Positions 1-40,945 of a stretch of 64,000 bases of DNA are shown in pieces. Both the position numbers and the translations under genes were made by a program. The stretch lies in NCBI GenBank assembly GCA_030710605.1, contig CP092863.1, positions 64,603,572 to 64,667,571 on the forward strand, written 5' to 3'. The DNA comes from Cordylochernes scorpioides. Lineage: Eukaryota > Arthropoda > Arachnida > Pseudoscorpiones > Chernetidae. The notes below the pieces were generated by a model. The model was not told where the DNA came from and did no database searches. It saw only the letters and a list, made by a program, of their open reading frames with translations. The first letter of the stretch is position 1; each line of letters opens with the position of its first letter.

Positions 1-120
1 TGTTTATTTTTGATTTGGCTACTGTTTCTATTTCTTTAAAAGTAAAATTATTATTACGTGTTGATAATAGCCCAGCTCTTATCAAAGCATACCAAATATA
101 AATTGCCAAAATGAGTCTAT
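1..120 (-). pseudogene. LINE-R 3'-coding fragment at window edge
   Basis: Degenerate piece of the C-terminal region of the RNase H LINE that is well preserved at 22532-23848. The same stretch lies in arm 2 near 40560-40640, so the inverted duplication continues past the left edge of the window. Confidence 0.7.
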
Positions 121-220
121 ACCATTAGATAACCAACACTTTTAAAAAAATAAATAAATAAACTTAAATTGTGCTTCCATAAATAGAAATTCAAATTAGA
201 TTTCGCTAAAAAAAGTTGTT

Positions 221-640
221 GCTTCTTATCCCCTTGTGTAAAGATTACACAAATTCCATGAGTTCATGCTCCTAGAGCTGTTTTATGATAAGCAGCAGCC
301 TCTCCCAAAGATCCTGTTTAGTACATCTAATACAAGCCAAAATGTGTTCTGGAGCTGCAGGTGCCAAGCTACATTTTGGGCAAGTGGGGTAGATTTTGTT
401 GTTATTTTCTATCTTCCTATGGCCTGTTCTAAATCTTGTTAGTGTTGTTTGATGCTGTCTGAGGTTCAGAGCTCCTCCTGGGTTCACTCCACAGCTGTGC
501 TTAGGTGGGATCCTCCAGTTCTTGTTTATTTTTGATTTGGCTACTGTTTCTATTTCTTTGAAAGTAAAATTATTATTCCGTGCCAATTCCGTGTTGATAA
601 TAACCCTGCTCTTATCAAAGCACATCAAATATAAATTGCC
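221..640 (-). pseudogene. LINE-R C-terminal fragment (pseudogene)
   Basis: Minus-strand remnant of the LINE-R ORF2 C-terminus, with the conserved IPPKHS, TRFRTGH, CPKCS and PEHILACIRC motifs downstream of RNase H. It ends in the LINE-R tail (GGGGATAAG) near 225. Small deletions and substitutions relative to 23400-23813 show it is dead. Mirrored in arm 2 at 40040-40420. Confidence 0.8.
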
Positions 641-861
641 AAAATGAGTTTATACCATTAGAACACCAACACTTTAAAAAAAATAATAAATCAACTTAAA
701 TTGTGCTTCCATAAATAGAAATTCAAATAAGTTTTGCTAAAATAATGTAATTATCAATAAAGAAATATGACCACTATGTAAGTTATCAACAAAGACTTAG
801 TTGAAAGAAAAAGATTTAATATTAAAAATGGAAGACATATTACAGATTGTGTTACAAAACA

Positions 862-1016
862 ATTCTTAACCTGCAACCCCAAAACACTTTATTGATTGTA
901 TTGACTCATCCATTGGTGAATTCTACTCATCCCTAGCAGACACCATCAACAAGCTTTACAACCTTGATACCTCAATATGATTGAGTGGAGATAAGAAAGA
1001 AGAAGAAGAAGAACAG
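862..1016 (+). repeat. LINE-T 3' tail copy
   Basis: Short LINE 3' end. It reads CIDSSI..YSSLADTINKLYNLD up to a stop codon, followed by GAGTGGAGATAAGAAAGAAG and a GAA-rich tail. Counterpart in arm 2 at about 39655-39815. Confidence 0.65.
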
Positions 1017-1267
1017 TAATATATTAAAAAAAGGCATCTCCTTATCTGGTAACTGATAAACTAAAATAAAGGTAAAAACTATGCACTATCTCTCGACCGT
1101 TTATGCTAACTAGCAAATTGGGTCAGTAACAAAGCCGCAACACCAGCTAAGGCAAATCCAGACTCCCTCCTGGAGACCATGGTTTTTGGCTAATGGCCCT
1201 CATCCGTGCACAACAGACTTTGATTTCAAGAAAGTTCACGAAATCTTCAGAATCTACCAAATAAATG

Positions 1268-1462
1268 AAAAGGCACAATTTGGATTATGGATTATAAACA
1301 CAAGATAAAAAGACCAAGTTCAAATAAATAGTGTGTGACATTTCAGTAGTAGCATTGTTATCATCTTCAGATCATTCAGCATTTTTGTCTGAAGATGGTA
1401 ACAACACAGAAACGTCACACACTATTTATTTATTTGGATTTGGTGTTATTACCTTGTGTTCA
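1268..1462 (+). repeat. Fb-H foldback (hammerhead-like family)
   Basis: Two inverted halves beginning with an AAGGCACAATTTGGATTA motif and meeting at a GTGTGACRTTTC / GAAACGTCACAC centre. The right half shows CTGAAGATGGTAACAACAC followed by GAAACGTC. The same copy lies in arm 2 at 39205-39405. The 75-codon ORF running through it is not a gene. Confidence 0.6.
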
Positions 1463-1684
1463 CCAAATAAGTGTTTAGCTAGCAGTGTAGCTAGGCCACG
1501 TTTAGTCCAGTTGGGCATTTGTAATTTGCCAATGCTCTGTGTTACAGCTTGTCACTGACTTGATTCAGCTAGTTTGCAGTAACAGTCAATAGATGGTGAA
1601 TAATTTTTGATTCTCTTTTGGTTGAACCTTTCATTTTTATAGATCAATATCCTCCTGTTGAAATTGACATTAAAATAACAGTAA

Positions 1685-2118
1685 CAACAGTTGACTGCTA
1701 CAATCCGAGTTAGAATCCCGCATTAGGCCTTTTTTTTTTTTTTTGATAAAAAAAAAAGAAAATGCTTCAATGGCCCCGAATCTTGTAAAAGTTCAACCAC
1801 ACCAGCAGGGGCAAGTAACTAAACGGGGCTCTGACACATTTCTAAGTGCAAAAGTCAAACTGCTTTTCACACGTGTAGATATTTTATACATATAAAATGA
1901 GAGAAGAATTTGAAAATAAGATTTTCAATGACCCATTGTTGTAAGACATTCTGAAGGAAGGAAAGATATAGGGTTAGAAAGATGCAGTCTGGAAAGGGTT
2001 AACCCATCGCTTGAATAGAAATCAAATAGTGGAAATAAGATGTGAGAGATGTGGTGTACTTACAGTAAAAGCTGTCGCCTACTTCTACCCACCATAATTA
2101 TTATGGCCTGTACCACAT
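1685..2118 (+). repeat. SINE-A copy, interrupted
   Basis: tRNA-like head followed by the SINE-A body. About 160 bp of unrelated sequence (roughly 1888-2050) interrupts the body, which resumes at 'gtggtgtacttacagtaaaagc'-like sequence. It meets the next SINE-A tail to tail. Arm 2 equivalent: 38085-38530. Confidence 0.65.
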
Positions 2119-2437
2119 GTTTTTTTTTTTTATTGCTTATCCCTAGTACACGTGGTACAGGCCATGATAATCATGGTGGCTAGTTAGCGATTGCTTTTAC
2201 TATAAGCGCACCACATGTCTACACATGTGAAAAGCAGTTCGACTTTGCACTTACAAATGTGCCAGAGCCCCGTTTGGTTACTTGCACTCGCTGGTGGGGT
2301 TGGACTTTTGCAAGAATCGGGGGCCATTGGAGCATTTTTTTTTTTTTAAACAGAAAAAAATGTCCAATGCGGGAATCGAACCCAGATCCTAGTGGTCAAA
2401 AACCAAACGGTTTAACCAGCCTTCCACCGACCCCCAT
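2119..2437 (-). repeat. SINE-A, full-length copy
   Basis: About 320 bp. On the minus strand it has a tRNA-like head with a perfect B-box-type motif (GGTTCGATTCCC) and a weak A box, an A-rich linker, a unique body, and the tail CTAGGGATAAGC with poly(A). This is the unoccupied version of the site where arm 2 carries a Gypsy element (34225-37872). Confidence 0.8.
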
Positions 2438-2508
2438 AACTAGGGTTAAGCAAAAAAAAAAAAACAGGTTAGTTTTGTATATCACAGATAGATGACTCTG
2501 TGGTGCAG

Positions 2509-2569
2509 TCGGGATGACATCTCCGCCATCGACATCAACATGGGATGTCCCAAGGAGTTCTCTATCAAG
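2509..2569 (+). CDS. DUS2: DUS2 exon 5, arm 1 copy
   Basis: 61-bp exon with acceptor gtgcag and donor gtaaga. It completes a split Val codon and encodes RDDISAIDINMGCPKEFSIK, containing the NMGCPK motif that holds the catalytic cysteine of tRNA dihydrouridine synthases. The nucleotide sequence matches the arm 2 copy (33985-34045), but it lies on the opposite strand to exons 1-4, so it cannot splice to them as assembled. Confidence 0.9.
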
Positions 2570-2975
2570 GTAAGACATCGAGTTCTTGATTCCTCAGCAA
2601 CCTTAAGACACCTTCCACCATATCCTGCTTCATATGTCAACATTTCTGTAACCCCAGTGATACACACAACTCCTATTAGAAAGACCCTCTCCTATAAAAA
2701 AAAACATGGATACTCCTTGTTGGCCGGAATAAATCATGTGACCTTCGACAGTGGGTGAAATCGGGTGGTGGCCACCTTGGAGCGCATGCGCATAAAAAAA
2801 AGATATAATCACCGACGCGTAGGTGCGCCCAGCTAGTTCATAAGTTCATTTGGCTTTGCCCTAGTTCTTTTTTCCTTTTCCTGGTTGTCCTTATGACTGA
2901 ATAAAGTCTAGTTGATTTTCTGTCTCTGAGCTGATTGTACATGAGAGGACAAGAACTCTAACACTCCTGATAAAG

Positions 2976-3560
2976 CACAATTCAGATTATAGATACAAGA
3001 AAATAAGCCCTAATCCAAATAATTTAATATTGTATGACGTTTCACTAACAGCATTGTTACCATCATCAGACAAAAGAATAAATGAGAAAAAAATATTGCA
3101 GCATATTCATAACTTGATAACAAGTACTATTTAAGAGGGGGTCGGTGGAAGACTGGTTAAACTGTTTGGTTTTTGACCACTACGACCCGGGTTCGATTCC
3201 CGCCTTGGACACTTTTTTCTGTTTGAAAAAAAAAATGCTCCAATGGCCCCCGATTCTTGCAAAAGTCCAACCCCACCAGTGAGTGCAAGTAACCAAACGG
3301 GGCTCTGGCACATTTGTAAGTGCAAAGTCGAACTGCTTTTCACATGTGTAGACATGTGGTGCGCTTACAGTAAAAGCAGTCGCTAACTACCCACCATGAT
3401 TATCATGGCTTTGAGATAAGAAAGAAGAAGAAGACTATTTAAGAACATGCTGTGATGTTTTTTCTCATTCAGTACTTTTGTCTGATGATGGTAACAACAC
3501 TGTTACCAAAACATCACACACTATTAAATTATTTGGATTAGATCTTATTTTCTTGTACGG
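2976..3560 (+). repeat. Fb-H foldback split by a SINE-A
   Basis: The left half (about 2976-3130) and right half (about 3430-3560) are inverted copies with the CTGATGATGGTAAC core. A SINE-A sits between them at about 3135-3430. Same arrangement in arm 2 at 32990-33580. Confidence 0.6.
3135..3430 (+). repeat. SINE-A with LINE-T-type tail
   Basis: Normal SINE-A head and body, but after CCATGATTATCATGGC the expected GGGATAAGC tail is replaced by GAGATAAGAAAGAAGAAG, the tail of the LINE-T/SINE-F group. Mirrored in arm 2 at 33120-33420. Confidence 0.65.
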
Positions 3561-3689
3561 ATACTCCTGTTAAATAAATCAAAAATCCATCCAGGAATAA
3601 GTCTCTTTATCAGTTTTTACATAAACTCAAGCTTTTAGGTTTATCAGCTCTTTGACGGGAGTAACACAATAACTACATTTATTCAATGA

Positions 3690-3840
3690 TAAGGCACAAT
3701 TTGGATAATGATTATAAACACAAGGTAATAAGACCAAATTCAAATAAATAATGTGTGACATCTCAGTAGCCTTTTTTACCGAAACGTCACATACTATTTA
3801 TTTATTTGGAGATTTGGTCTTATTACCTTGTATTTAAATT
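3690..3840 (+). repeat. Fb-H foldback, internally deleted
   Basis: Terminal inverted arms are recognisable, but most of the central core is lost. Arm 2 copy at 32715-32862. From here to about 4385 I see only intron-like sequence with no recognisable gene. Confidence 0.5.
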
Positions 3841-4387
3841 TTTTTAAGAAAAAAGGCAGATTATGAAACTAAAAGTTGCTGATTGGCTTGCTGCACTATC
3901 TGTCAAAATAAATATCAACTAATCAGGAATAAGTATTTGACCAATTCTGGAATACATTAAAATCAACAATTAGTTGTGAGATGTAATTGACAATTAAAAA
4001 TAGTTTATTGACAAAGAGAGTTTACAGAGTTTAAAACAGTGTAGGAAATATGTACACCAGACGAGGCCTTCTCTGAAGGGACGTACAGATCTCAGGAGCC
4101 CTCCATAAGTTTAGAGAGTCCCAGGCCGCAGTTCATGTTGCCTGCATGCTCAACCTGTGTGAGATGTAAATGCATTGCCATTTGGAAAGGATGGACATAT
4201 TGGTAGCATGATTGTTTTGTGTTATGAACGAGAGCACCTGAGACACAGCAGCGCGTGGGGTGCACACAGGTGCTGCATGGCTTCAGTGTTCTCCCGTCAA
4301 ATTTAACAACTCGCTTGCATTGAAAGCATCTTCATTTACTCTAATTCAAATAGAATTAAATCTGATTCATATATTTTATCCAACATA

Positions 4388-4596
4388 TGTAGACTCAATA
4401 ATAGTCCAACCCCACCAGCGAGTGCAAGTAACCAAACAGGGCTCTGGCACATTTGTAAGTGCAAAGTCAAACTGCTTTTCACATGTGTAGACATGTGGTG
4501 CGCTTACAATAAAAGCAGTCGATAACTACCCACAATGATTATCATGGCCTGTACTACGTGTACTAGGGATAAGCAAAAAAAAAAAAAAAACACTCA
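4388..4596 (+). repeat. SINE-A, 5'-truncated
   Basis: Starts inside the body (CCAACCCCACCAGCGAGTGC) and ends with a GGGATAAGC-poly(A) tail. Confidence 0.7.
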
Positions 4597-4649
4597 ATAA
4601 TTATATATTTGCTCTGTCGGAGATATATTAAAGCTATTGTTCTCCAATA

Positions 4650-4817
4650 CAGTAGAACCTCCCTTGAGCAGACACCTCTCTACAAAAGACAGTTTTCATT
4701 TGCAAAATTACCATTTTTACAATTTAGCAACTCTCCGGTAAGAGGACAGCTCTCCCTAAAGGACACTTTGACTCTGTAATTAGGTGTTGTCCTTTACAGG
4801 GAGGTTTTATTGTATTT
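4650..4817. mobile_element. MITE-P1 (pogo/Tigger-like, non-autonomous)
   Basis: About 165-bp palindromic element with ends CAGTAGAACCTCCCTTG and GGGAGGTTTTATTGTA; there is no coding capacity. A CAGTNRAACCTC terminus next to TA is typical of pogo-like elements (family knowledge). Arm 2 counterpart: 31944-32108. Confidence 0.6.
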
Positions 4818-5006
4818 TCAGTATTCTATTTTATTCTACACGACAATATTTCAAAAGATAACAAGATTCATTAGAAACATTTAGTTGCACAATCAGATGT
4901 CTTTTTCTTATTTATTCCATCTGATCCCAGTACAATTTCACTTTTGTACTATTTTTTTCAGAAATTTAGTTCTGAAGATCATTTATTGGTTGGAAGTAGA
5001 TTCAGA

Positions 5007-5170
5007 GAAAAACACATCAACCTATTGTTTATTTAACTCCTGATGTTTCAATGACTTCCTATCATTCTCTCAGTGGAATGAATGATGTTCCCCTGAGGAG
5101 AATGACAGGAAATCACTGAAATGTTGGGAGTTGAAACATACTATAGGTTGATGTGGCTGTGTTTTTTTAC
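5007..5170. repeat. Fb-L foldback
   Basis: Long hairpin with arms ACATCAACCTATTGTTTATT / ACTATAGGTTGATGTG. The centre carries CTGAGGAGAATGACAGG and CTGAAATGTTGG, a second variant of the CTGANGA ... GAAAYGTY arrangement seen in Fb-H. Arm 2 copy: 31465-31630. Confidence 0.5.
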
Positions 5171-5252
5171 CTGAATTAGTTAACTTAGTTATTGTGTTAC
5201 CCTCATCAGTGAATATTTTCAGATTGTGTCTCTTATCATTAATATTAATATG

Positions 5253-5493
5253 TATCTCAGAAGAAGGCTAAGTGACACTCACTCCTCACTTTCTTACTGC
5301 TACTCTTTTTGTGTTGTTTTTCTTGCTTCCCTCTTTCTCTTTCTTATTTTTTTTTTCTTGTTTTTTTTTTTCCTTTTCTTCTGTATATATCGTTATTTCC
5401 TTTGTCTCACTGCCTTGTTCTTATGCATACCTCTGGTGAATCCTGTATAGGGTCAGTGACCCTGAATAAAGGCTTTTTTGTTGTTGAAAAAAA
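5253..5493 (+). mobile_element. 5'-truncated LINE 3' end, arm 1 only
   Basis: Pyrimidine-rich 3' region with an AATAAA signal and the end GAATAAAGGCTTTTTTG, then poly(A). The 9-bp TSD ATTAATATG lies at 5244-5252 and again at 7405-7413, beyond a Helentron nested in the poly(A). The site is empty in arm 2 (near 30790-30800). A related 3' end occurs at 30869-31438. Confidence 0.7.
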
Positions 5494-7393
5494 CAATGGT
5501 TGCCTGTAAAGTCGGTTTTACGGGCGAAGATTTTACGTGACAACGGTAGAATATTTATTGATATGAATATAATTAAATTGCACAATAGGAACAAGGAATT
5601 GAATGAAAATAAGAATTGCACAAATTTTAACTATAGAAATATATTTTGTTTACTAAAACATTGTACATGTAAACTTAAACTTAACTAATTCCTATTTGAG
5701 TGATTTTGTTGAGGATAGGACGATGATAGGAGAAATATGAAATGAAAGGAAGTGTTTCTGCTGTAATGTGTCTTGCGAAAGTCAAGTCGATAGTTGTTCC
5801 TTTTAACGTAGTTGACTTAGAAACGTTTGATACGCAATCAAGATTATACGTATTTTTCATGAAATTAAGAAACGAGTTGTCAGGCTTTACGTTTTTGTTA
5901 AAATCACCACACAGAAGAATCGGTATACTAGAATCAATTTGCACGAACGGTGGCACGTACTGGCTGTTGTGAATGTACGGACCGAGTCCTTGCCATAGTA
6001 ACATTCCAATATCCTGCATACTAGCTCCTGGATGAATATATACAGCACCGAGTATAAACTTGAAGCTAGTATTAGCGGCGAAGCAAGTAACTTCAGTCAT
6101 GCACATGTCACCCTTGGTTTTAATGACACGAGTTACGTCTGTAATCGCAACTTGGAACACTTCCGCCGTAGATGTCGATGATAATTTACGATAGATCGCC
6201 ACTCCACCAGCCGCGTTGGTATCTGAGTTAGGTCGATTATTTTCCCTGGATACGCACTCATAACCCTTGATTGGAGTTGGTTCACAAGTGTCGCGCATCC
6301 ACGTTTCAGTCAATACTAAATAGTCTGATCGTGGTATCACTGTATCTGTTTCAATGTCCGCGGCATGGGCACTTAAACTTTGACAGTTGATGTTCGTTAC
6401 AATAAGTTGTCCAGCGTCGGTTGCGTCGTCACAGAATTTTACGGCTTGTTTGGTAATTGTGTCTAGAGTGTGTCCACGAAGTCGTAGGTATTCATTGCCA
6501 ACATCTCGAGTAGTCTGTGAGTCGTTTCCATCTCGGCCATGTTTGAAAACCAATGGAGAGTCCTTTTCTGTTATGATGTACAATCCGTCGATACTTGTGA
6601 CGCGGCTCATGGCTACATATACCAATTGCTGTGGTTGTTTTGAGGAGTACTTGTAAACAATTGTAGTAAACGTCCCACCCTGGGCCTTGTGGATCGTAAT
6701 TGCACAAGCAGGCACGCAAGGAAATTGTTTTCGCTTGCACTTCACTGTTTTTGTCAACGAAATGTTTACCACTTTCTTGTGCACTGGCACCCAATCGACG
6801 GATAAGGTGTTTGTAATTGTAAATGATGAAGTTGAAAATTAAAACATTTATTCAGATCGAAGGTTCAAATTGTTGCTAAATAAATTTGAAACTATTTAAA
6901 ATTTGTAAAATAATAATTAATTAATTAATTAATTAATTTTAAACTAATAATTTACTTAACACTATCAACATTTATCAATAGTATGACATAACCTATAAAC
7001 TCAGTTTCTCAACTTTTGTGTCAATCTAACAATTAATCAATCAATCATAGTTTACGATAATGAAATATCAGTGTACAATTATTTACCTTTATTGTTGTAG
7101 TTGTTGTAAATGACGAATCTAAGCACTCCACATTTTCACTACAGACACAGCTGACGATACTTTAACCACACGTGTGAACTTGTATTATGACGCTTTCTTG
7201 TTTTTCCAACGCCAAGAACGTTCGAGAAAGACAGAGACAAGCATGCGCCGATTCAATGCGCCTAATTCTCTAGCGCTGCGCATGCAGCTGCGCGCGCAGC
7301 ACTCTCGTTCGGTGACTCATCGTTACGTTACCGGGCGTTACACTTTTTCATAAGTGACTCCCAGCCGCAACCTAATTTAAGATGTTGTCACAT
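5494..7393 (-). mobile_element. Helentron derivative 1 (keeps 3' half)
   Basis: Rolling-circle element on the minus strand. Its 5' end near 7390 (ATGTGACAACATCTTAAATT) and 3' end near 5494 (TTACAGGCAACCAT) match the termini of the second copy at 20831-22499. Short inverted motifs GTGACAAC / GTTGTCAC lie near the two ends. It is inserted within an A/T homopolymer. Only the end of the Rep/helicase gene plus a C-terminal endonuclease survives; the N-terminal part is deleted. Confidence 0.75.
5681..6790 (-). pseudogene. Helentron helicase C-terminus fused to AP-type endonuclease
   Basis: 369-codon open frame. Residues about 20-90 are the C-terminal end of a Pif1-like SF1 helicase (AITIHKAQGGTF, then QLVYVAMSRVTSIDGLYI, motifs V/VI). 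Residues about 130-360 are an endonuclease/exonuclease/phosphatase-type domain (NINCQS, LTETWM, GGVAIY, ILLCGDFNKN, TTIDLTFA, SYHRPI). This helicase-endonuclease fusion is characteristic of Helentrons (Helitron2 group) and would act in nicking and unwinding during rolling-circle transposition. The upstream Rep and most of the helicase are missing, so this copy cannot be autonomous. The start shown is only the edge of the open frame at the deletion junction. Confidence 0.85.
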
Positions 7394-7411
7394 AAAAAAA
7401 AAAAATTAATA

Positions 7412-7572
7412 TGTTCAATTCTCAACCTGCAACCCCAAGACATATTATTGACTGTATTGACTCATCCATTGATGAGCTCTACTCTTCCCCAGCAGACACC
7501 ATCAAAAGTCTCAAGCTTTACAAGCTTGATACCTTAGTGTGATTGAGTGGAGATAAGAAAGAAGAAGATTAA
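7412..7572 (+). repeat. LINE-T 3' tail copy
   Basis: Contains HIIDCIDSSIDELYSSPADT in one frame, a stop codon, then TTGAGTGGAGATAAGAAAGAAG. The frame suggests the C-terminus of a LINE ORF2. Arm 2 copy at 30632-30795. Confidence 0.65.
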
Positions 7573-7747
7573 TATGTTGATTTCTAAAAGTTTTATCAAG
7601 GACACATTAGAAGTACTTAATAATCCCACAAGTAATATTCAGTGAACATTGCTCCTCATTATTATTACCTCCTTTTTTGACCAATTACTGGGGCTGGTCT
7701 GAGCAATGCTTCCATTCTAATGAAGAGATGCTAAAATTTGGATCACC

Positions 7748-7970
7748 TATGATAAAGCACAATTTGGATTATAGATTATAGATACAAGAAAATAAGACCT
7801 AATCCAAATAATTTAATTGTGTGTGACGTTTCAGCAACAGCATTGTTACCATCATCAGACAAAAGAATAATTTGTCATTTATTCTTTTGTCTGATGATGG
7901 TAAAAACGCTTTTACTGAAATGTCGCACACAATTTATTTGGATTAGGTCTTATTACCTTGTACCTTAAAG
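7748..7970 (-). repeat. Fb-H foldback with best-preserved hammerhead-like core
   Basis: The left half holds, on the minus strand (7826-7859), CTGATGA, a GGTAAC/GTTGCT stem-loop, GAAAC and GTC in hammerhead order. The right half on the plus strand has a decayed version. Termini resemble GATAAAGCACAATTTGGATT. Arm 2 counterpart: 30240-30455. Confidence 0.6.
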
Positions 7971-8253
7971 CTTGAGTTAATAAAAACTGATAAGAAACTT
8001 ATCCTAGGTTGGATCTTTGATTTATTTAATTGTGAGCACAAGGAGATTACTATCTATTATGTAGAATCCTGGTTTCCTCTCTGGTCATTCGTCAGTTGAT
8101 GGATTAAATCAGAACTTGCTGTTTATTTGATTTTACAAAAGTGTGCTCTATGTACCTCATCAGGTAGGTTATTTTCCTATAGTTGGTACACCCAGCTGGT
8201 GGTAGCAATATTTGTATTAATATTATAAGTTTGCCTTTTGCTTCACAAACATA

Positions 8254-10056
<1,803 letters not shown>

Positions 10057-10193
10057 TGTGCTGTTCTCTCTCCTCCTACCTAGATACAGTCATAGCTAAA
10101 CCCACCCATCTTAACACTTTTTGTCTTAACCATAGCATTATTATCCACTTCACTTACACTCCAGCTGCACTATCTGGTATAGATTTTTTCCTA

Positions 10194-10380
10194 TACAGTA
10201 GAACCTCCCTATAAAGGACAACACCTAATTTCAGAACCAAAGTGTCCTTTAAGGAGAAGTGTTCTCTTACCGGAGAGTTGCGCTAAATAAAAAAATGGTA
10301 ATTTTGCAAATGAAAACTGTCCTTTATAGAGAGGTGTCCTCTAGTGCGGGTGCCCTCTCATGGAGGTAGTTCTACTGTAC
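10194..10380. mobile_element. MITE-P1
   Basis: Ends TACAGTAGAACCTCCCT and TAGTTCTACTGTA. Arm 2 counterpart: 29173-29362. Confidence 0.6.
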
Positions 10381-10427
10381 TAAAGTTTACTACAACTCAG
10401 AAGAAATATATTTTGATGGATCTGTGT

Positions 10428-10964
10428 ACAGTAGAACCTCCAGGTAAAGAACAATGCCTAGTTGCCGAGTCAATATGTCTATTTGGGAGAGGTGTCCTCT
10501 TTCCAGAGAATTTAAAAGCACGAATGTTTCTTTTATACCTAATACAAACTTCTACTGCCCTTACTGCGATGAAAAAAGATATTGGGAGGGCTTGGCTCAT
10601 CAGTGGTGAACCCTCCCAGCGGTTTCGCCAATTTAATCCACCAGACCGCTTCTCAGAGCTCTAATACTGTATTGGACGATTCTGATTATATACGCAGCAC
10701 TGAAGGATGGAATCTCAGAAATGGTTTTCAAGAAAACTATGGACAGTAAGGGCAGTAGAAGTAGGTATTATGTATAAAAGAAACATTCGTGCTTTTAAAT
10801 CCTTTCATTTTATATGTATAGATGGCGCGTTATTGCTATGTGTTAATCTTTCCAGAGACTTGTTAAATATCAAAAATGGTCGTTTCGGGTGATGAAAACT
10901 TTTCTTTGTAGAGAGATGTCTTCTAGCAGGAGTGTTGTTCTCTCATGGGGGTTCTACTGTATTT
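10428..10964. mobile_element. MITE-P1 with nested Fb-G foldback
   Basis: P1 ends lie at about 10428 (ACAGTAGAACCTCC) and 10964 (GGGGTTCTACTGTA). The interior is split by an Fb-G element at about 10510-10850, whose arms contain TTCTACTGCCCTTACTG and CAGTAAGGGCAGTAGAAG around a GAGGGTTCACCACTGATGAG-type centre (reverse strand). TTTCCAGAGA flanks both sides of the insert. Mirrored in arm 2 at 28586-29121. Confidence 0.55.
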
Positions 10965-11134
10965 CCACACTGAAAGGAAGAGGAAAAAAAAAAGACAATT
11001 TTGTGTTGGTCAAAATACCTAGTAGACAAACTTTCACTTTATTCTGTTCCATGTTACTTCATATATCATACGATGAACAATTGTTTGCACTGTTTACAAT
11101 AACTTTTAGTCAGCCTGCCACTGAGAAGTTCTCC

Positions 11135-11245
11135 CAGTCTTAATGACAAATGCAGACACATTCTACTTCACCCAGTCATGAGTATCAAGCTCTACAAGCT
11201 TGATATCCTAATATGATTGAGTGGAGATAAGAAAGAAGAAGACAA
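11135..11245 (+). repeat. LINE-T/SINE-F tail fragment
   Basis: Ends ATGATTGAGTGGAGATAAG followed by AAAGAAGAAG. The preceding 170 bp (from 10965) show no recognised feature. Confidence 0.5.
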
Positions 11246-11290
11246 CAACTTTATATATATTTGCATTTTATTAAAAAAAATTAAATATAT

Positions 11291-11470
11291 ACAGTTAAAC
11301 CTGTCTATAGTGCCCCCTCTTGGGACTCACCAAAATAGGGTGTTATAGAGAGGGGGTGCTATAGACAGGTCACTTTTAATGTAAATCGCATCGTACTACG
11401 TATTTAAAATCAGGCGCTACAGAAGGGAGGCGCTATTTAGAGGGGGCGCTATAGACAGGTTTAACTGTAT
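11291..11470. mobile_element. MITE-P2 (pogo/Tigger-like)
   Basis: Palindromic, about 180 bp, ends CAGTTAAACCTGTCTATAG and CTATAGACAGGTTTAACTG, flanked by TATA. No ORF. Arm 2 copy: 28078-28260. Confidence 0.65.
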
Positions 11471-11474
11471 ATAT

Positions 11475-11800
11475 ATATTTTTTTCTTTTCCCTAGTATAC
11501 GCGGTACAGGCCATGATAATCATGGTGGATAGAAGTTGGTGACTGGTTTTACTATAAATGCACCACATGTCTACACATGTGAAAAGCAGTTTGACTTTGC
11601 ACTTACAATTGTTCCAGAGCCCCATTTGATTACTCGCATTCGCTGGTGGTGTTGGATTTTTGCAAGAATCAGGGGCAATTGGAGCATTTTTTTTTTTTTT
11701 TTCAAATTAGAAAAAAGTGCCCAATGCGAGATTCGATCATGGGTCATAGCAGTTGAAAACCAACAATTTAGACCACCCCCTTCTACCGACCCTCCAAAAA
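11475..11800 (-). repeat. SINE-A copy
   Basis: Complete but diverged minus-strand SINE-A; its B box is mutated. Arm 2 counterpart 27755-28068. Confidence 0.75.
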
Positions 11801-12081
11801 AAAATTAAAATATGCCCCACATAATTGTTCAAGCATGTTATATCTTGCTTTGTTGCCCCACACTTAGGTGACAAAGTTGTCCTAAAAGTGCATTAGAGTG
11901 AAAAAGGTTAAAGACTCTGAAACTGGTACAGAGTTGACTAATCTAACGACTAAGGTGACCTAGAATTTTGACAGTTACAGCACCTGATGTTTTTCTCAAA
12001 TGTAATTACTGATACCATGGTTTCTTATTAAGATGAAAACAACAGACTTCCAGGGTCAAGTTTATTTTTAATTCAAATCTC

Positions 12082-12405
12082 TACCTTTTTTTTTTTTTTG
12101 CTTATCCCTAGTACACGTGGTACAGGCCATGATAATCATGGTGGGTAGAAGTTAGCGACTGCTTTTACTGTAAGTGCACCACATGTCTACACATGTGAAA
12201 AGCAGTTCGACTTTGCACTTACAAATGTGCCAGAGCCCCGTTTGGTTACTTGCACTCGCTGGTGGGGTTGGACTTTTAAAGAATCGGGGGCCATTGGGGC
12301 TTTTTTTTTTTTTAACAGAAAAAAGTGTTCAATGTGGGAATCGAACCCGGGTCGTAGTGGTCGAAAACCAAACGGTTTAACCAGCTTTCCACCGACCCCC
12401 TAATC
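12082..12405 (-). repeat. SINE-A, full length
   Basis: Intact B-box motif GGTTCGATTCCC and GGGATAAGC tail. Arm 2 counterpart 27148-27465. Confidence 0.8.
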
Positions 12406-12651
12406 TCTACCTTTCAGGCATCATAGCCTTTCTACGGGAGAATGACCCAAAGTTAGAGATTTGAATTGTTATATAAAGGTTATTCAAAAATCAATAAAAA
12501 ATTCAACAACATGTATAGCTTTTTATTGGAAAAGCAAGCTTTCGAGCAGCAAAGCTCTTCTGCTGGCTTAACAATGGCAAGTGGAGAAATAAAAATATAC
12601 GTTTTTTTTTTTTTGCCTATTCCTAGTACACGCGGTACAGGCCATGATGAT

Positions 12652-12858
12652 TGTTGTGTATTTGCATACTTGGGATATTTGCAGAAATGCAAATAGCCTC
12701 TTTGCATACTCGATTCTGACTTAATGTATAAATAGCGCTACAAGTTGTTAGCAGTCAGTCAGTCAGTCAGTCCATATTGTAGAAGTTAGTGTTCTAATAA
12801 ATTCTAAGAGAATGTAGTGGCCTGGTATTGGAGCAACCCACACAGAGGCAACACAACA
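12652..12858 (+). mobile_element. Solo LTR inside a SINE-A tail
   Basis: 207 bp starting TGTTGTGTATTTGCATAC and ending GGCAACACAACA, flanked by ATGAT / ATAAT (5-bp TSD with one change). Internal landmarks in promoter order: octamer-like ATTTGCAT copies, a TATAAATA box near 12730 and AATAAA near 12800. The host sequence is the CCATGATAATCATGG stretch of SINE-A. Arm 2 carries it at 26709-26906, slightly shorter. Confidence 0.65.
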
Positions 12859-12897
12859 ATAATCATGGTGGGTAGTTAGTGACTGCAAAAAAAAAAT

Positions 12898-12968
12898 GCG
12901 ACGGCCGGGAATGGAACCCGAGTCAACTGCTTGGAAGGCAGCTATGCTAACCATTATACCACCGTCGC
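12898..12968 (-). tRNA. tRNA-Gly(UCC)-like gene, arm 1 copy
   Basis: 71-nt cloverleaf. Acceptor stem GCGACGG/CCGTCGC pairs perfectly, the anticodon loop CTTCCAA gives UCC, and the discriminator is A. A T run follows the 3' end. The T-loop reads TTCCATT, with C where a purine is normally conserved (position 57). It is joined directly to the 3' part of a SINE-A body, so it may be a SINE head rather than a host tRNA gene. Confidence 0.6.
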
Positions 12969-13009
12969 TTAAAAATATATGTGAAATCATAGGGTGCTTC
13001 TCCTGTCAA

Positions 13010-13140
13010 AATAAATGTCAAAACTAGACACCATCTATTGATCGTCGCCACAAATTAGCGGCCTCGGGTTGGTGATAAAGCCACAACACCAGCTTAATAG
13101 ATTCCATCTAGTTTTGGTATTTAATTTCCTCCTGTAAAAA
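13010..13140. repeat. Uncharacterised interspersed repeat
   Basis: An ACACCATCTATTGATCGTCG / GCCTCGGGTTGGTGATAAAG-containing segment. Related pieces occur near 1080-1180, 26450-26570, 39480-39600 and 42830-43210. No coding potential; family unknown. Confidence 0.4.
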
Positions 13141-13244
13141 AATGTCCACCAAGGTATAAATTGTTGAATTTTTTAATTGATTTTTTTTCTCTGAAAACCT
13201 TTGGGGTGTCGAATTAAAGAAGTTATACTGTTTTTAACAAAAAG

Positions 13245-13537
13245 AAAATAAGACTGAGTGAAGTAGAATGCGTCTGCCTTTGTCATTAAGACTGAGAGCA
13301 CTACTCAGTGGCAGGCTGACTGACTTAGCTCCAAAAGAAATGACCGCCTTTGACATGAGGAACAGATGCCATGTGCAGCTGCTCCTAACATGGAGTACAG
13401 ACTCATCCTGTATCCCTGGATCAGGAGCCCTTACAGGGTACTATCAGCCGGGCCAGCTGAGCCCAGGTTTTTTAGTGAGCTTGTTACTGCTCCCCCTCCT
13501 ACTTTTTCATCCGGGCTTGGGACCGGCAAAGACGGAG
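13245..13537 (-). repeat. SINE-F/LINE-T-associated retroposon, 3' part
   Basis: Minus-strand copy of the repeat with CCCAGGTTTTTTAGTGAGC and CGCTCCTAACATGGAGTAC landmarks. It is split by the insertion at 13538-14177 and resumes at 14178. Its unsplit partner in arm 2 is 26035-26315. Confidence 0.65.
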
Positions 13538-14177
13538 CATTACCTTATGTGGATGAGCATTATCTACTTATATAATTGCCTTATTCTGCCTGTGTGAAGT
13601 TCACGGATAGATTTTGGTCAAAATGGATAAAATAAAAAAAGTGTCAAGGGATGGGAATCGAACCCACGACCTTCCGCTTACCGGGCAGATGCCATGACCA
13701 CTAGGCTACCCTGGACATATTTTTCCGTTCATAAATTATATAAAATTAAATATTAAAACTATATATTCAAATTATTCTACTTAGCTCACGAACAGCGCCC
13801 TCTATCAAGGTTATAAATACGTTTAAAATCGAAATCTTTTCAAAATTTTATTAATAATAGTTCGCTTACTAATTAGAATACTTGATCTAAATTGAAATAT
13901 TTATAGACGCTCGCTCGATTTGAAGATTTATATCGTAACTAATCTGACTGTAAAGTTTGGAGCGGGACGTTTCACAAGAGTGACATCCACGGCGCCAATT
14001 TATAATTGTAATGAATAGTGTTTGGATAAAACATTTAATCGGGTAAACCCGGGCGTTGCCCGGGTCATTCATCTAGTCATATATATAAATGAGATGGGGA
14101 CCAATATACCCTTTCCCTTTATGGGTAGAGGACTCTCTCCTCAACAGAGTTGCTGGGGCCTTCATTATTGCCGGGCT
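13538..14177 (-). mobile_element. 640-bp retroposon-like insertion, arm 1 only
   Basis: Flanked by a 17-bp duplication (13521-13537 and 14178-14194, one mismatch) and absent from arm 2. On the minus strand it contains the Rt-C terminus GACCCGGGCAACGCCCGGG near 14065 and, further on, a tRNA-Thr-like sequence (13642-13717). No protein is recognised. Confidence 0.65.
13642..13717 (-). tRNA. tRNA-Thr(GGU)-like sequence within a retroposon
   Basis: Good A box (TAGCCTAGTGG) and perfect B box (GGTTCGATTCC). The acceptor stem TGTCCAG/CTTGACA has one mismatch, and the anticodon loop CCGGTAA reads GGU with C instead of U at position 33. Its place inside a TSD-flanked insert, and the changed U33, suggest a SINE-type promoter head rather than a functional tRNA. 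Confidence 0.5.
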
Positions 14178-14189
14178 GACCGGCAAAGG

Positions 14190-14312
14190 CGGAGTTGAAA
14201 ATAAGACTAAATCCAAATAAATAGTTTATGACGTTTCGTTAACAGTGTTGTTGATTAGGTCTTATTTTCTTGTAGCTATAATCCAAATTATGCTCTATCA
14301 TAGTATTAATAT
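14190..14312. repeat. Fb-H fragment
   Basis: Reduced foldback with TTTATGACGTTTCGTTAACA and the terminal GATTAGGTCTTATTTTCTTG motif. Arm 2 copy at about 25920-26030. Confidence 0.45.
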
Positions 14313-17504: not shown

Positions 17505-17524
17505 TGAGTGAATTATTTCCTTTC

Positions 17525-26670: not shown

Positions 26671-26708
26671 ATTTTTTTTTGCAGTCACTAACTACCCACC
26701 ATGATTAT

Positions 26709-34115: not shown

Positions 34116-34224
34116 TGGGGGTCGGTGGAAGGCTGGTTAAACCGTTTGGTTTTCGACCACTACGACCCGGGTTCGATTCCCGCATTGGACACTTTTTTCT
34201 GTTTAAAAAAAAAAAAAAATGCTC
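34116..34224 (+). repeat. SINE-A head, left part of copy split by Gypsy
   Basis: Has the tRNA-like head with perfect B box and the A-rich linker; the body continues at 37873-38080 after the LTR retrotransposon. TGCTC at 34220-34224 is the TSD. Confidence 0.75.
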
Positions 34225-34399
34225 TGTGACGTAATTGTAAATATTTAGATGTAAATATGTAAATATGGTTTTGCATATAGACAGCACGAGTTAGGATATA
34301 TATAGAGATAATTGGAAGCTGTCAGTTAGTTAGGAAAGTTCCGTTCTTAAATAAAGAAGTGTTCACCATCGTAGCCCGATTCCTTGAAGAAACTAAACA
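34225..34399 (+). repeat. Gypsy 5' LTR
   Basis: Starts TGTGACGTAATTG, ends GAAGAAACTAAACA. Contains TATATATAGAG and a TTAAATAAAGAAG polyadenylation-type signal near its end. Confidence 0.9.
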
Positions 34400-34510
34400 T
34401 GGTGGCAGCGTAAAAGCGGTATAAGCGTAAAAGCAGTAAAAGCGTAAAAGCAATTTTCAAAATTATAAAGTTCAAATATAAGAATTTTTTTTTTTAAGAA
34501 AAGGAAAAAA

Positions 34511-34927
34511 ATGGCTAATTATATACAAGTAGCTGCTCCAGAAGGATTCAATTTCGGCAAACCTAATGAATGGCCAATATGGTTCAAAAGATTTCAAAGA
34601 TACAGAATTGCTTCAGAACTTTCAGAGAAAAGTGAAAATGAGCAAGTAAATGCTCTGATTTTCATAATGGGCGATAAAGCAGAAGAAATCTTGATCTTAT
34701 TTAATTTAAGTGAAGCGCAAATTAATGACTATAAACTAGTGGTGTCCAAATTTCAGGACTATTTCATAGGAAAAAGAAACGTTATTTATGAAAGAGCAAA
34801 ATTCAATAGAAGAAGCCAAGGGGAGACGGAACCTGTAGAGGAATTCATAACCAATCTCTATGTGCTGGCAGAAACCTGCAGCTATGGTATCTTAAAAGAA
34901 GAGATGATCACAGGGATCGCTTGGTAG
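34511..34927 (+). pseudogene. Gypsy gag N-terminal part, frameshifted
   Basis: 138 codons from ATG, starting MANYIQVAAPEGFNFGKPNE, with the retrotransposon-capsid motif WPIWFKRFQRY. The frame breaks near 34905-34920, where two extra bases shift it out of register; the continuing capsid, zinc-knuckle and pol frame is the next ORF. Intact relatives encode one gag-pol polyprotein. Confidence 0.85.
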
Positions 34928-36957
34928 TTGGAGTGAAAAACTTTAATCTTTCTGAGAAATTACAGTTGGAATCGGAACTTACCTTGGAGAAGGCAATCCA
35001 GATAGTGCGCCAATCAGAAAGTGTAAAAAATCAACAAAAAGAAATTAGGCAAGACACTGAAGATCGGAACGTAGATGCGATTGACAGGAAAGGAAGCAGA
35101 AATGGCACAAATGTTCGCAAAACAAGAATGAAAGGTACAAAAACGTACAATTCTAATTTTCCAAAGAATCCTCAAGGTTGTTCTTCTTATGAGAAACGTA
35201 AATGTATCCGATGTGGATACTACCCAGGACATTCGAAAGAACAATGTCCTGCTAGGGATGCTATTTGCAACAAGTGCAGAAAGAAAGGTCATTTTGCCAA
35301 GGTTTGTCACACTAAAACCGTACAAGAAGTATCAAGCTCCCAAAATTATGCATTCATTGGAATAGTGGGAATGCAGGAGAATGCGGAAGATAAGTGGTGT
35401 GAAGTGATAAAGGTGAATGACCAGCCCATAAAATTCAAAATCGATACAGGAGCAGAGGTTTCGGTTATGCCAGAAGGGATATACTTGCAACATTTTGGAT
35501 ACCTCAAGACGGAGAAGGCCGATAAGAATCTTTTTGCTGTTTCCAAGAAGATAGAGGTCAATGGAATGTTCCAGGCTTTTTTGGAATCAAAAAGGCAGAA
35601 GTGCGAAGAGACCATCTACATCGTTAAAGGGGTTGCCCGACCTTTACTAAGCTGTAGGGCTAGCGAGATCCTAGGTCTCGTTAGGAGGATAAATATTGTC
35701 GAAGATCATGCTCCTACCAAGCTAGACCCAATGCTCAAGTTTCCTAAGTTATTTAATGGACTGGGAAAAATAGACATTCCATACGAAATAAAGTTGAAAG
35801 AAGGGGCAAAACCTTATTCGATATATACACCAAGAAGAGTACCTATACCTCTAATGAAAGAACTTCAAATGGAACTGGAGAGAATGACGGCAAATGGCGT
35901 AATTGAAAAGGTTGAGGGTTCTTCGGAATGGTGTTCACCCATGGTTCTCGTTGCAAAACCTTCGGGAAAATTAAGAGTATGTGTCGATCTCTCGATACTC
36001 AATAAAAATATTCTAAGGGAAATACACCCAATCCCGGTGGTAGAACATACGCTAGCTCAGTTGAAAGGAGCTAAAGTATTCACAAAGTTGGATGCCAATA
36101 GTGGATTCTGGCAAATACCACTGTCTTCAGAGTCGTCAGCACTTACCACATTTATCACTCCATTTGGGAGATTTCGGTTTAAGAGGTTACCTTTCGGTAT
36201 CTCTTCCGCTCCGGAAATTTTTCAGAAAAGAATGGGTCAAATATTGGGAGGACTGGAAGGAACTCTGTGCCATATGGATGACATAATGGTTTATGGTTCA
36301 TGCCAAGAAGAACATGATAAAAGACTCGAAACAGTATTAACAAGAATTTCTAAATCAGGACTTACCTTGAACAAGGATAAATGCAAATTTGCAGTTACAA
36401 CTATTAAGTTTTTAGGTCATCAAATTGGTCCTAACGGGATTCAAGTAGACCCCAAAAGAAAACGAGCTATACTGGAGTTTCCCAAACCGAGATCTGTCAA
36501 GGAACTAAAACAATTTTTAGGAATGGTAAATTTTTCAGCTAGATTTGTCCCCAACTTAGCGGAGATAGCGCATCCAATGAACAAGTTACTGTCAAAGAAA
36601 GAAGAATGGATTTGGGGAGATGATCAAGATCGGGCATTTGACCAGATAAAGAAAAATCTCACTTCTGCGCCAGGGTTAGCCTTGTATGATCCTTCTTTGC
36701 CTATCACAGTATCAGCCGATGCTTCATCTTTTGGGCTAGGCGCAGTAATATGGCAAACCAAAGACGGACTGAGACAAGTCATCGCATATGCTTCTAGAAC
36801 GCTCTCTGAAACAGAAAAGCGTTATGCCCAAATCGAAAAAGAGGCGCTGGCTATCACCTGGGCTTGTGAGAAATTCAAGCAATACATCCAAGGCCTGGTG
36901 ATCACTCTTGAAACTGACCACAAACCACTAGTACCGATCTTTACTTCCAAAAACATC
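34921..36957 (+). pseudogene. Gypsy gag-pol: zinc knuckles, protease, RT, RNase H
   Basis: Open frame continuing from gag. Order: two zinc knuckles near residues 95-132 (second CNKCRKKGHFAKVC is CX2CX4HX4C), aspartic protease (KIDTGAEVSVMP, about 172), reverse transcriptase (KLRVCVDLSILNKN, FTKLDANSGFWQIPL, LPFGISSAPEIFQK, catalytic CHMDDIMVYG near 454) and RNase H (VSADASSFGLGAVIW, QIEKEALAITWACEKF, ETDHKPLV). True pol homology ends at about 36957; the frame runs on to 37065 through an inverted segment. The RT matches the gag-pol polyproteins often annotated K02A2.6-like (Mag-type). RT and RNase H look intact; integrase is not. Confidence 0.88.
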
Positions 36958-37054
36958 GATGATCCGGTCACATCCGTAGGAGCATCTGAGGTGTGTGTGT
37001 TGGCCTCTGGGCAATTTATATATGGCTCCTCGTCTGGCTCGAAGTGTGGAGGCC
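36958..37054 (-). repeat. 97-bp exact inverted copy of the element's own 3' region
   Basis: Reverse complement of about 37499-37595 in the same element; I find no mismatch. It sits exactly where pol should continue from RNase H into the integrase zinc-binding and core domains. Confidence 0.9.
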
Positions 37055-37675
37055 CCGCAGAGTAACGGCTTCATAGAATCTTTCGTAAAAATTGTTAAAG
37101 AAAGAATTAGCAAGTCAAAGGATCCATATCTGGCTTTGCTGGCATATCGAGCTACACCACTTGCGAATGGCTTCAGCCCAGCAGAACTTAGCATGGGACG
37201 GCGGGTTCGCACCACTATTCCAACACCAGCGAAACAACACCAACCACCCAATTTAAAGAATTGGAAAAATCATGAAGCTATTCAGAGGAAAAAACAAAAA
37301 TACTACTATGATCGAGCAAAAGGAGTACGAGAACTGCCTCCATTGGATGTGAATGATCGAGTTTGGCTGACGGACCTTAAGACTCCCGGAGTCATCATTT
37401 CCAAAGCAGATACTCCTAGATCTTATGTGGTTGACACACCGAGGGGAAGTGTTAGAAGAAATCGCTTCCATCTACTTCCTACTGGTCAGAGGTCTCCAGG
37501 GCCTCCACACTTCGAGCCAGACGAGGAGCCATATATAAATTGCCCAGAGGCCAACACACACACCTCAGATGCTCCTACGGATGTGACCGGATCATCAACA
37601 TCTCCTAAAGAGGCATTTTATAGGACTCGCTCTGGAAGAACAGTTCGTCCGCCCAGACGTTTTGGAGATGATTAG
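37055..37675 (+). pseudogene. Gypsy integrase C-terminal remnant
   Basis: Picks up at PQSNGFIESFVKIVKERI, the helix carrying the catalytic Glu, then the C-terminal DNA-binding part (DVNDRVWLTDLKTPGVI, RSYVVDTPRGSVRRNRFHL) and a basic tail (RTRSGRTVRPPRRFGDD). The HHCC zinc domain and both catalytic Asp residues are deleted. It is in another frame from the RT, so it would not be translated as a fusion. Confidence 0.85.
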
Positions 37676-37697
37676 AACTAATCTCTAAGAGGGGAGA

Positions 37698-37872
37698 TGT
37701 GACGTAATTGTAAATATTTAGATGTAAATATGTAAATATGGTTTTGCATATAGACAGCACGAGTTAGGATATATATAGAGATAATTGGAAGCTGTCAGTT
37801 AGTTAGGAAAGTTCCGTTCTTAAATAAAGAAGTGTTCACCATCGTAGCCCGATTCCTTGAAGAAACTAAACA
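37698..37872 (+). repeat. Gypsy 3' LTR
   Basis: 175 bp, no difference seen from the 5' LTR; preceded by the polypurine tract and followed by TSD TGCTC. Confidence 0.9.
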
Positions 37873-38080
37873 TGCTCCAATGGCCCCCGATTCTTGCAAA
37901 AGTCCAACCCCACCAGCGAGTGCAAGTAACCAAACGGGGCTCTGGCACATTTGTAAGTGCAAAGTCTAACTGCTTTTCACATGTGTAGACATGTGGTGCG
38001 CTTATAGTAAAAGCAATCGCTAACTAGCCACCATGATTATCATGGCCTGTACCACGTGTACTAGGGATAAGCAAAAAAAA
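37873..38080 (+). repeat. SINE-A body, right part of copy split by Gypsy
   Basis: Begins with the duplicated TGCTC and continues CAATGGCCCCCGATTCTTGC to the GGGATAAGC-poly(A) tail. Confidence 0.75.
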
Positions 38081-38565: not shown

Positions 38566-39020
38566 TAGTCACGACCGTCTTTCCTCCTCAATTCCTCATG
38601 TCACGGATGAGCGCGCATCATCATTATGATCATTATCATTATCTAATGATAATAATAATAATTATTATTATTATAATTATTTTATTATTTTATTATTAAT
38701 ATACATAGTCACGACCGTCTTTCCTCAATTCATCAATTCCTCATGTCACGGATGCGCGCGCATCATCATTATGATCATTATCTTCTATAGAAGCTTCTAT
38801 CTTTATAATTATGTATATTTACAAAAAGTCAATTCGCTCGCGCCTCTAGCGGTGAAAATGAGGGGTAATACCAGCTGACCTAATGTACATGTAAAGTTTG
38901 GAGCGGGACGTTTCACAAGAGTGACATCCACGGCTCCAATTTATTATTGTAACAAATAGTATTGGAATAAAAACATTCAATCGGGTAAAACACGGGCGTT
39001 GCCCGGGTCATTCGTCTATT
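38566..39020 (+). mobile_element. Composite insertion, arm 2 only
   Basis: Two near-repeats of TAGTCACGACCGTCTTTCCT (near 38575 and 38705) around AT-rich sequence, then an Rt-C terminus (GGGCGTTGCCCGGGTCATTC) near 39000 preceded by the GGAGCGGGACGTTTCACAAG block also found at 13956-13976. Arm 1 goes straight across this point near 1640. No protein recognised. Confidence 0.5.
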
Positions 39021-39204
39021 TGATCTATAAAAATGAAAGGTTCAACCAAAAGAGAATCAAAAATTATTCACCATCTATTGACTGTTACTGCAAACTAGCT
39101 GAATCAAGTCAGTGACAAGCTGTAACACAGAGCTTTGGCAAATTACAAATGCCCAACTGGACTAAATGTGGCCTAGCTACACTGCTAGCTAAACACTTAT
39201 TTGG

Positions 39205-39405
39205 TGAACACAAGGTAATAACACAAAATCCAAATAAATAAATAGTGTGTGAAGTTTCTGTGTTGTTACCATCTTCAGACAAAAATGCTGAATGATCTGA
39301 AGATGATAACAATGCTACTACTGAAATGTCACACACTATTTATTTGAACTTGGTCTTTTTATCTTGTGTTTATAATCCATAATCCAAATTGTGCCTTTTC
39401 ATTTA
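39205..39405 (-). repeat. Fb-H foldback
   Basis: Mirror of 1268-1462. Confidence 0.55.
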
Positions 39406-39654
39406 TTTGGTAGATTCTGAAGATTTCGTGAACTTTCTTGAAATCAAAGTCTGTTGTGCACGGATGAGGGCCATTAGCCAAAAACCATGGTCTCCAGGAG
39501 GGAGTCTGGATTTGCCTTAGCTGGTGTTGCGGCTTTGTTACTGACCCAATTTGCTAGTTAGCATAAACGGTCGAGAGATGGTGCATAGTTTTTACCTCTA
39601 TTTTAGTTTATCAGTTACCAGATAAGGAGATGCCTTTTTTTAATATATTGCTGT

Positions 39655-39815
39655 TCTTCTTCTTCTTCTTTCTTATCTCCACTCAATCATATTGAGGTAT
39701 CAAGGTTGTAAAGCTTGTTGATGGTGTCTGCTAGGGATGAGTAGAATTCACCAATGGATGAGTCAATACAATCAATAAAGTGTTTTGGGGTTACAGGTTG
39801 AGAATTGTTTTGTAA
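39655..39815 (-). repeat. LINE-T 3' tail copy
   Basis: Mirror of 862-1016, reading from (CTT)n and CTTATCTCCACTCAATCATA. Confidence 0.6.
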
Positions 39816-40039
39816 CACAATCTGTAAAATGTCTTCCATTTTTAATATTAAATCTTTTTCTTTCAACTAAGTCTTTGTTGATAACTTACATAGTAGTCAT
39901 ATTTCTTTATTGATAATTACATTATTTTAGCAAAACTTATTTGAATTTCTATTTATGGAAGCACAATTTAAGTTGATTTATTTTTTTTTTTAAAGTGTTG
40001 GTGTTCTAATGGTATAAACTCATTTTGGCAATTTAGATT

Positions 40040-40425
40040 TGATGTGCTTTGATAAGAGCAGGGTTATTATTAACACGGAATTGGCACGGAATAATAATTT
40101 TACTTTCAAAGAAATAGAAACAGTAGCCAAATCAAAAATAAACAAGAACTGGAGGATCCCACCTAAGCACAGCTGTGGAGTGGACCCAGGAGGAGCTCTG
40201 AACCTCAGACAGCATCAAACAACACTAACAACAACAACAACAACAACACTACCCCACTTGCCCAAAATGTAGCTTGGCACCTGCAGCTCCAGAACACATT
40301 TTGGCTTGTATTAGATGTACTAAACAGGATCTTTGGGAGAGGCTGCTGCTTATCATAAAACAGCTCTAGGAGCATGAACTCATGGAATTTGTGTAATCTT
40401 TACACAAGGGGATAAGAAGCAACAA
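40040..40425 (+). pseudogene. LINE-R C-terminal fragment
   Basis: Plus-strand mirror of 221-640. A CAA repeat has replaced the TRFRTGH stretch near 40230, so this copy has diverged from arm 1. Confidence 0.75.
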
Positions 40426-40574
40426 CTTTTTTTAGCGAAATCTAATTTGAATTTCTATTTATGGAAGCACAATTTAAGTTGATTTATTTATTTTTTTAAA
40501 AGTGTTGGTTATCTAATGGTATAGACTCATTTTGGCAATTTATATTTGGTATGCTTTGATAAGAGCTGGGCTAT

Positions 40575-40945
40575 TATCAACACGTAATAATAATTTTACT
40601 TTTAAAGAAATAGAAACAGTAGCCAAATAAAAAATAAACAAGAACTGGAGGATCCCACCTAAGCACAGCTGTGGAGTGGACCCAGGAGTGAACCTCAGAC
40701 AGCATCAAACATCACTAACAAGATTTAGAACAGGCCATCTCAAGCCATTGAAGATAGAAAATAAAAACAAAAACTACCTCACTTGCCCAAACAATAGCTT
40801 GGTGCCTACAGCTCCAGAACACATTTTGGCTTGCATTAGATGTATTAAACAGCACCTTTGGGAGAGGCCGCTGCTTATAAAACAGCTCAAGGAGCATGGA
40901 ATTTGTGTCATCTTTGCACGAGGGGATAAGAAACAACAACAACAA
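40575..40945 (+). pseudogene. LINE-R C-terminal fragment, second tandem copy
   Basis: A second degenerate LINE-R 3' end directly downstream of the first, ending ACGAGGGGATAAGAAACAAC and (AAC)n. The two together look like two separate truncated insertions or a duplication. This is the last segment I can pair with arm 1. Confidence 0.75.

Follow-up and report, generated by a model that had tools for sequence, protein, structure and literature searches.

Introduction

Genuine chromosomal palindromes, such as the ampliconic palindromes of the mammalian Y chromosome, have long inverted arms of high identity. A similar appearance may arise from errors of assembly, and two descriptions of such errors are pertinent here. 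According to one of them, the signs of false heterotype duplications are half read depth, gaps (a hallmark) between copies that lie on the same scaffold, discordant read pairs, and k-mers in single copy; palindromic chimeric reads, 7-17 kb in length, are treated there as a separate type of error, and the word 'inverted' has no occurrence in its main text (PMC9516828). The other deals with haplotypic duplication in assemblies and its removal by purge_dups (PMC7203741). The present study concerns 64,000 nucleotides of the genome of the pseudoscorpion Cordylochernes scorpioides (contig CP092863.1, hereafter C1; C1:64603572-64667571), referred to below as the window, in which exons of the gene DUS2 lie within a large inverted repeat interrupted by a run of N.

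The locus resembles the false heterotype and haplotypic duplications as they are set out in those texts (PMC9516828, PMC7203741), where both alleles are present in a haploid assembly as apparent paralogs with gaps between them; as in false heterotype duplication, a gene, here DUS2, is split and duplicated. Unlike the described false heterotype duplications, two long sequences appear to have been cut here and their pieces interleaved, with two of the pieces inverted, which gives the look of a palindrome. With the palindromes of the mammalian Y chromosome, the locus shares long inverted arms of high identity, but it differs from them in having a gap at its centre and a left arm that assembly gaps bound at either end, and in that a further contig continues this arm directly elsewhere. 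The comparisons of assembled sequence described below indicate that the structure is almost certainly an assembly artefact, composed of unpurged and mis-ordered haplotypes, and no biological palindrome.

Results

The inverted match and its extent

Window coordinates are used throughout, with negative values to the left of the window (C1 position = window position + 64603571). Flanking DNA was added on both sides, at first 70 kb on the left and 30 kb on the right and later more, the right side reaching 144000; genome searches were conducted in the assembly of 2.62 Gb in 24 sequences. A self-BLASTN search of the window revealed one stretch of N, exactly 100 in length, at 18895-18994 and clearly indicated that the left arm, positions 1-17307 (plus strand), is collinear with the right arm, positions 18995-40640 (minus strand), in reverse complement, which bears out the inverted duplication around a 100-N run proposed in a first-pass annotation of the window. 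Identities of the inverted matches were 97.3% for 9580-13537 against 29974-26034, 95.2% for 2335-4402 against 34217-32157 and 97.1% for 1-1647 against 40640-39020; kilobase-long matches at such identity are far beyond chance.

The scaffold neighbourhood (about 250 kb) comprises the contig pieces P, M, H, Q and R, named in scaffold order, and each boundary between them is a gap of exactly 100 N, so that the single-gap picture of the first-pass annotation was incomplete: at least five pieces and four gaps are involved. Contig H extends from -71200 to 18894 (90,095 bp), with 100-N gaps at both ends (-71300 to -71201 and 18895-18994); its part in the window, 1-18894 (minus strand), is placed inverted. 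Contig Q extends from 18995 to 131631, of which 18995-64000 (plus strand) lies in the window, and is followed by the fourth gap, 131632-131731, and by R, which begins at 131732. Contig M (22,045 bp) lies between the gaps C1:64510126-64510225 and C1:64532271-64532370. The extent of about 20 kb given earlier holds for the match within the window, but the duplicated left contig has the full 90,095 bp and the homology of the right arm really runs on to Q 104599. Position 40640, taken as the end of the arms, is merely the partner of window base 1, and an end of the arms there is ruled out by the continuation of the inverted match into the flanking DNA. The gap, supposed to be the centre of the repeat, is present, but it is not the exact centre: 1,587 bp of H (17308-18894) have no partner in Q.

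Joins between the contigs

This tail of H, 17308-18894 (plus strand), contains a DUS2 exon at 17382-17483, and for most of it the allele would be the end of contig P: most of the tail has a partner at C1:64508999-64510125, and the genome search placed the partner of 17308-18000 at C1:64509312-64510125 on the minus strand, with 94-98% identity. Contig P ends at C1:64510125, where the gap 64510126-64510225 begins; its final base is the partner of H 17308, and the initial base of Q, 18995, is the partner of H 17307. When P and Q were joined by script, a single alignment of the product to the reverse complement of H, rc(H), was obtained (positions 1096-2549 of the query, with the join at 1326/1327), with 38 bases before the join and 63 after it identical to rc(H) and the nearest indel about 40 bp away. 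Since P+Q aligns across the join without a lost base, the sequence P+Q, below called haplotype A, is complete there, and M and H, which lie between, are extra; the end of P joins base 18995 without an indel relative to H, and haplotype A misses no sequence at the 100-N gap 18895-18994.

At its other end, H is aligned to Q in reverse complement through its last base, -71200 corresponding to Q 104599. Contig R begins with sequence that matches Q from base 104600 in direct orientation; the sequence rc(H)+R could be aligned with Q through the join, where no indel occurs, and at least 48 bases before this point and 60 after it are identical. The finding of R followed from a second, direct copy of a piece of Q beyond the H end, which had been picked as a single-copy control. 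The two-copy state persists in R to at least 144000, the end of the DNA added, so that the unpurged part of C1 probably extends farther.

The matches of M lie in P and farther left. M 1-1069 matches P at C1:64508822-64507384 in reverse complement (about 90% identity), and M 18441-22045 matches about 64.470-64.474 Mb, also in reverse complement (96.5%); the latter partner was assigned to P, whose continuity that far to the left is assumed. Gaps lie between copies on the same scaffold at P/M, M/H, H/Q and Q/R, and a copy corresponds to a whole contig whose removal lets the flanks join, without an indel at the cut in P+Q and in rc(H)+R.

Divergence and copy number

Comparison of H with Q was based on a chain of 40 collinear blocks, with 941 of 981 high-scoring segment pairs, mostly cross-matches between repeats, omitted. 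The chain contains 1,055 mismatches in 57,761 aligned columns (1.83%) and 236 gap openings; the remainder of H consists of insertions absent from Q or of unaligned stretches. Many large insertions occur in only one of the two copies. The divergence is allele-like in the sense used for false heterotype duplications: the substitution rate is low, insertions show presence and absence, and coding exons are conserved.

Seven DNA probes were searched genome-wide, with at most 40 candidates scored per probe. Among the scored candidates, six of the seven probes have two copies at this locus, located in different pieces; the second copy covers the first 351 of 601 bases of one of these probes and 192 of 321 bases of another, the probe for the DUS2 terminal exon. 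Five of the six two-copy probes also have shorter repeat-family matches elsewhere, and the terminal-exon probe has none. The seventh probe, a piece of M, proved to be a dispersed repeat and is uninformative. A search with a piece of the arm in a phage collection gave no match.

The DUS2 gene

A tblastn search with the human DUS2 sequence revealed eight matching blocks that follow one another in order on H, between -17419 and 17483. Five are located in the window (2513-2569, 9625-9738, 14385-14540, 16788-16961 and 17382-17483) and three to the left of it (-17419, -14260 and -2725), all on the plus strand. Seven blocks were found on the minus strand of Q (51311-51213, 48515-48468, 43350-43258, 34041-33985, 29929-29816, 25834-25679 and 19518-19345), and the eighth block of this copy is located on P (C1:64510049-64509948, minus strand). 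The block -14260/48515-48468 is weak when taken alone (E 2.0) and was retained on account of its place in the order and its conservation, and three still weaker matches (E 2.2-3.4) were discarded as chance. The reading frame 9568-9873 contains the Pfam domain Dus (PF01207), and the same exon matches DUS2 entries of the PDB; the Pfam family and the PDB entries support the name DUS2, tRNA-dihydrouridine(20) synthase, for the predicted gene. Matches to the Dus family were also found at three further places in the genome, and the DUS2-specific stretches tested were found in the genome search only in the pieces described here.

A genome search with the C-terminal peptide of human DUS2 did not reveal a credible DUS2 exon (best E 2.05). 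A local tblastn search gave a weak match (E 0.35) that was then read as the terminal exon, located on the plus strand of M (C1:64517893); in the genome search, this exon has one partner, at C1:64494999-64495190 on the minus strand (98% identity), to the left of the P end. The located exons comprise the eight blocks and the terminal one; none was located between the eighth and the terminal exon.

In the scaffold, DUS2 is split, and its exons are distributed out of order among P, M, H and Q. When the pieces are regrouped as A, consisting of P+Q, and B, consisting of rc(M)+rc(H)+R, the located exons are in order and on one strand in each; the P/Q cut falls inside a DUS2 intron. The near-identity of coding exons between the arms, noted in the first-pass annotation, agrees with the seven blocks common to H and Q, in which 11 of 741 nucleotides and two residues differ; in the eighth block, H and P differ in 7 of 102 nucleotides and in no residue.

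A scan for tRNA genes, which covered the window, predicted several in the DUS2 introns, possibly transposon-borne. A tRNA-Gly(tcc) gene is present in both copies (12897-12968, minus strand, and 26600-26671, plus strand), a tRNA-Thr gene (13641-13716, minus strand) lies within an H-only insertion at 13532-14177, and Q contains two convergent tRNA-Gly(gcc) genes about 300 bp apart (46095-46165, plus strand, and 46467-46537, minus strand).

Insertions and repeats

The earlier observation that the arms differ by whole-transposon insertions was confirmed by filled and empty sites between H and Q. Domains of the elements in the window are backed by Pfam, and class names outside it were assigned by eye. 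An H-only element of the mariner type (8253-9579, plus strand) has TA at its site, inverted ends of 43 bp with 90.7% identity and the Pfam domains HTH_48 and Transposase_1; the corresponding site in Q is empty. A Q-only element with long terminal repeats (LTRs) at 34218-37867 (plus strand, approximate ends), which is presumably Gypsy-like, contains the domains RVT_1 and RT_RNaseH, has end repeats of 177 bp (34225-34401 and 37698-37874) that are 100% identical, and is absent from H. Another Q-only element, an LTR element of the Copia type at 54064-58515 (minus strand), is flanked by the target duplication ACAGT and has LTRs of 220 bp with 99.1% identity; the site in H is empty.

To the left of the window, H contains an LTR element of 6.15 kb (-62035 to -55886) that is absent from Q, with the target duplication ACATAT and 100% identical LTRs, and two related H-only LTR elements of 5.2 kb, at -44812 to -39627 and -51553 to -46361, with LTR identities of 96.5% and 99.4%, respectively; the empty site opposite one of these two is nearly clean, and opposite the other Q has 559 different bases. 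LTR identity ranges from 96.5 to 100% across the five LTR elements, and several insertions have a clean empty site opposite, which suggests that several transposon families have been active recently in this species; the copy-specific insertions are mostly young. A tandem array with a 125-bp unit has 6.9 copies in H (14604-15460) and 7.9 copies in Q (24634-25615), an allelic length difference; like the filled and empty transposon sites, it is typical of alleles. To the right of the window, Q contains an array of an approximately 800-bp repeat (about 66838-74425; about nine copies, 97-99% identical among themselves), mostly absent from H, where a related stretch lies near -27813 to -27002.

Discussion

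Two sequences would account for the data: A, composed of P+Q, and B, composed of rc(M)+rc(H)+R. The P/Q and H/R joins close without loss, and the collinearity and the positions of the gaps are likewise direct observations. A and B presumably represent both haplotypes of a single diploid individual, M and H were presumably joined originally, and the breaks would have been made by a cutting step of the scaffolder. The suggestion that haplotigs of one locus had been joined in opposite orientation, made in the first-pass annotation, is supported by the contig ends at the duplication breakpoints and by the loss-free closure of the flanks. The sequenced individual would have carried two diverged alleles of the DUS2 region, which the assembler may have built as the separate sequences A and B; a scaffolding or misjoin-breaking step would then have cut A once, at P/Q, and B twice, at rc(M)/rc(H) and rc(H)/R. 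The scaffold would have received the pieces in the order P-M-H-Q-R, separated by placeholders of 100 N, and in it M (22 kb) and H (90 kb) would be reversed. With H thus head-to-head with Q, the H/Q junction at 18895-18994 would mimic a palindrome. The artefact is of a known kind, and its arrangement is unusual yet traceable.

Several observations weigh against this explanation. It is drawn from the assembled sequence, and the intended control in Q, being itself two-copy, provides no single-copy contrast. The join of M to H is less well supported: the alignment of rc(M)+rc(H) to P does span the join, but its identity is 86.5% and it contains 24 gap bases. The partners of the two ends of M enclose an interval of about 38 kb (64.470-64.509 Mb), which exceeds the length of M (22 kb) by about 16 kb; the sequence examined comprised M except for 2,277 bp and this interval except for about 24 kb. 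The substitutions between H and Q are also uneven, amounting to 3.16% at H 17307 to 1647, 2.09% at 1647 to -19264, 0.75% at -19264 to -66826 and, in the repeat-rich 4 kb at the outer end, 6.1%. The step in divergence between outer H (-19264 to -66826, 0.75%) and inner H (17307 to -19264, 2-3%) may perhaps reflect different coalescence times along the haplotypes.

The long, collinear inverted arms of high identity are also what a true large palindrome would show, i.e., an inverted duplication of 90-110 kb inserted at the DUS2 locus, but the examined breakpoints coincide with 100-N gaps and no base is lost at P/Q or H/R. Continuous sequence across the centre is lacking, a 100-N gap being located there, and without M and H the flanks P and Q rejoin exactly. 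The order found in the scaffold, M before H, is, moreover, the opposite of that expected from a single inverted copy; R, a further copy, lies in direct orientation and continues H base-for-base; and both DUS2 copies would be disrupted in such a palindrome, yet the exon blocks are nearly unchanged. A true palindrome, to which hardly any probability can be given, was rejected because assembly gaps mark the limits of the copies and the flanks can be closed loss-free. It is just as exceedingly improbable that the scaffold order is real on one chromosome, in which case some 110 kb around DUS2 would have been duplicated and rearranged, with some pieces inverted and one continuing directly, and the two copies would have come to differ by about 2% and to carry different transposons.

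Old paralogous segmental duplications, i.e., two non-allelic loci whose contigs were shuffled in the assembly, would fit the variable identity (0.75-6% substitutions) and the many transposon differences. This origin is very unlikely, however: A and B have the gene order and much of the transposon context in common, and the tested DUS2 stretches are present in these two copies only. Within the approximately 250 kb examined, both copies lie in one scaffold interval and are joined only by gaps, and no second genomic context was found there for A or B.

On present evidence, then, there is no biological palindrome here, and the interleaving of two unpurged haplotypes remains the preferred explanation. 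About 275 kb of C1 (64.470-64.747 Mb) would hold unpurged interleaved copies, in which DUS2 is split and false signals of inversion and copy number arise; the four breakpoints can be used for correcting the assembly. For the biology of C. scorpioides, the paired alleles would supply filled and empty sites that point to recently active transposons.

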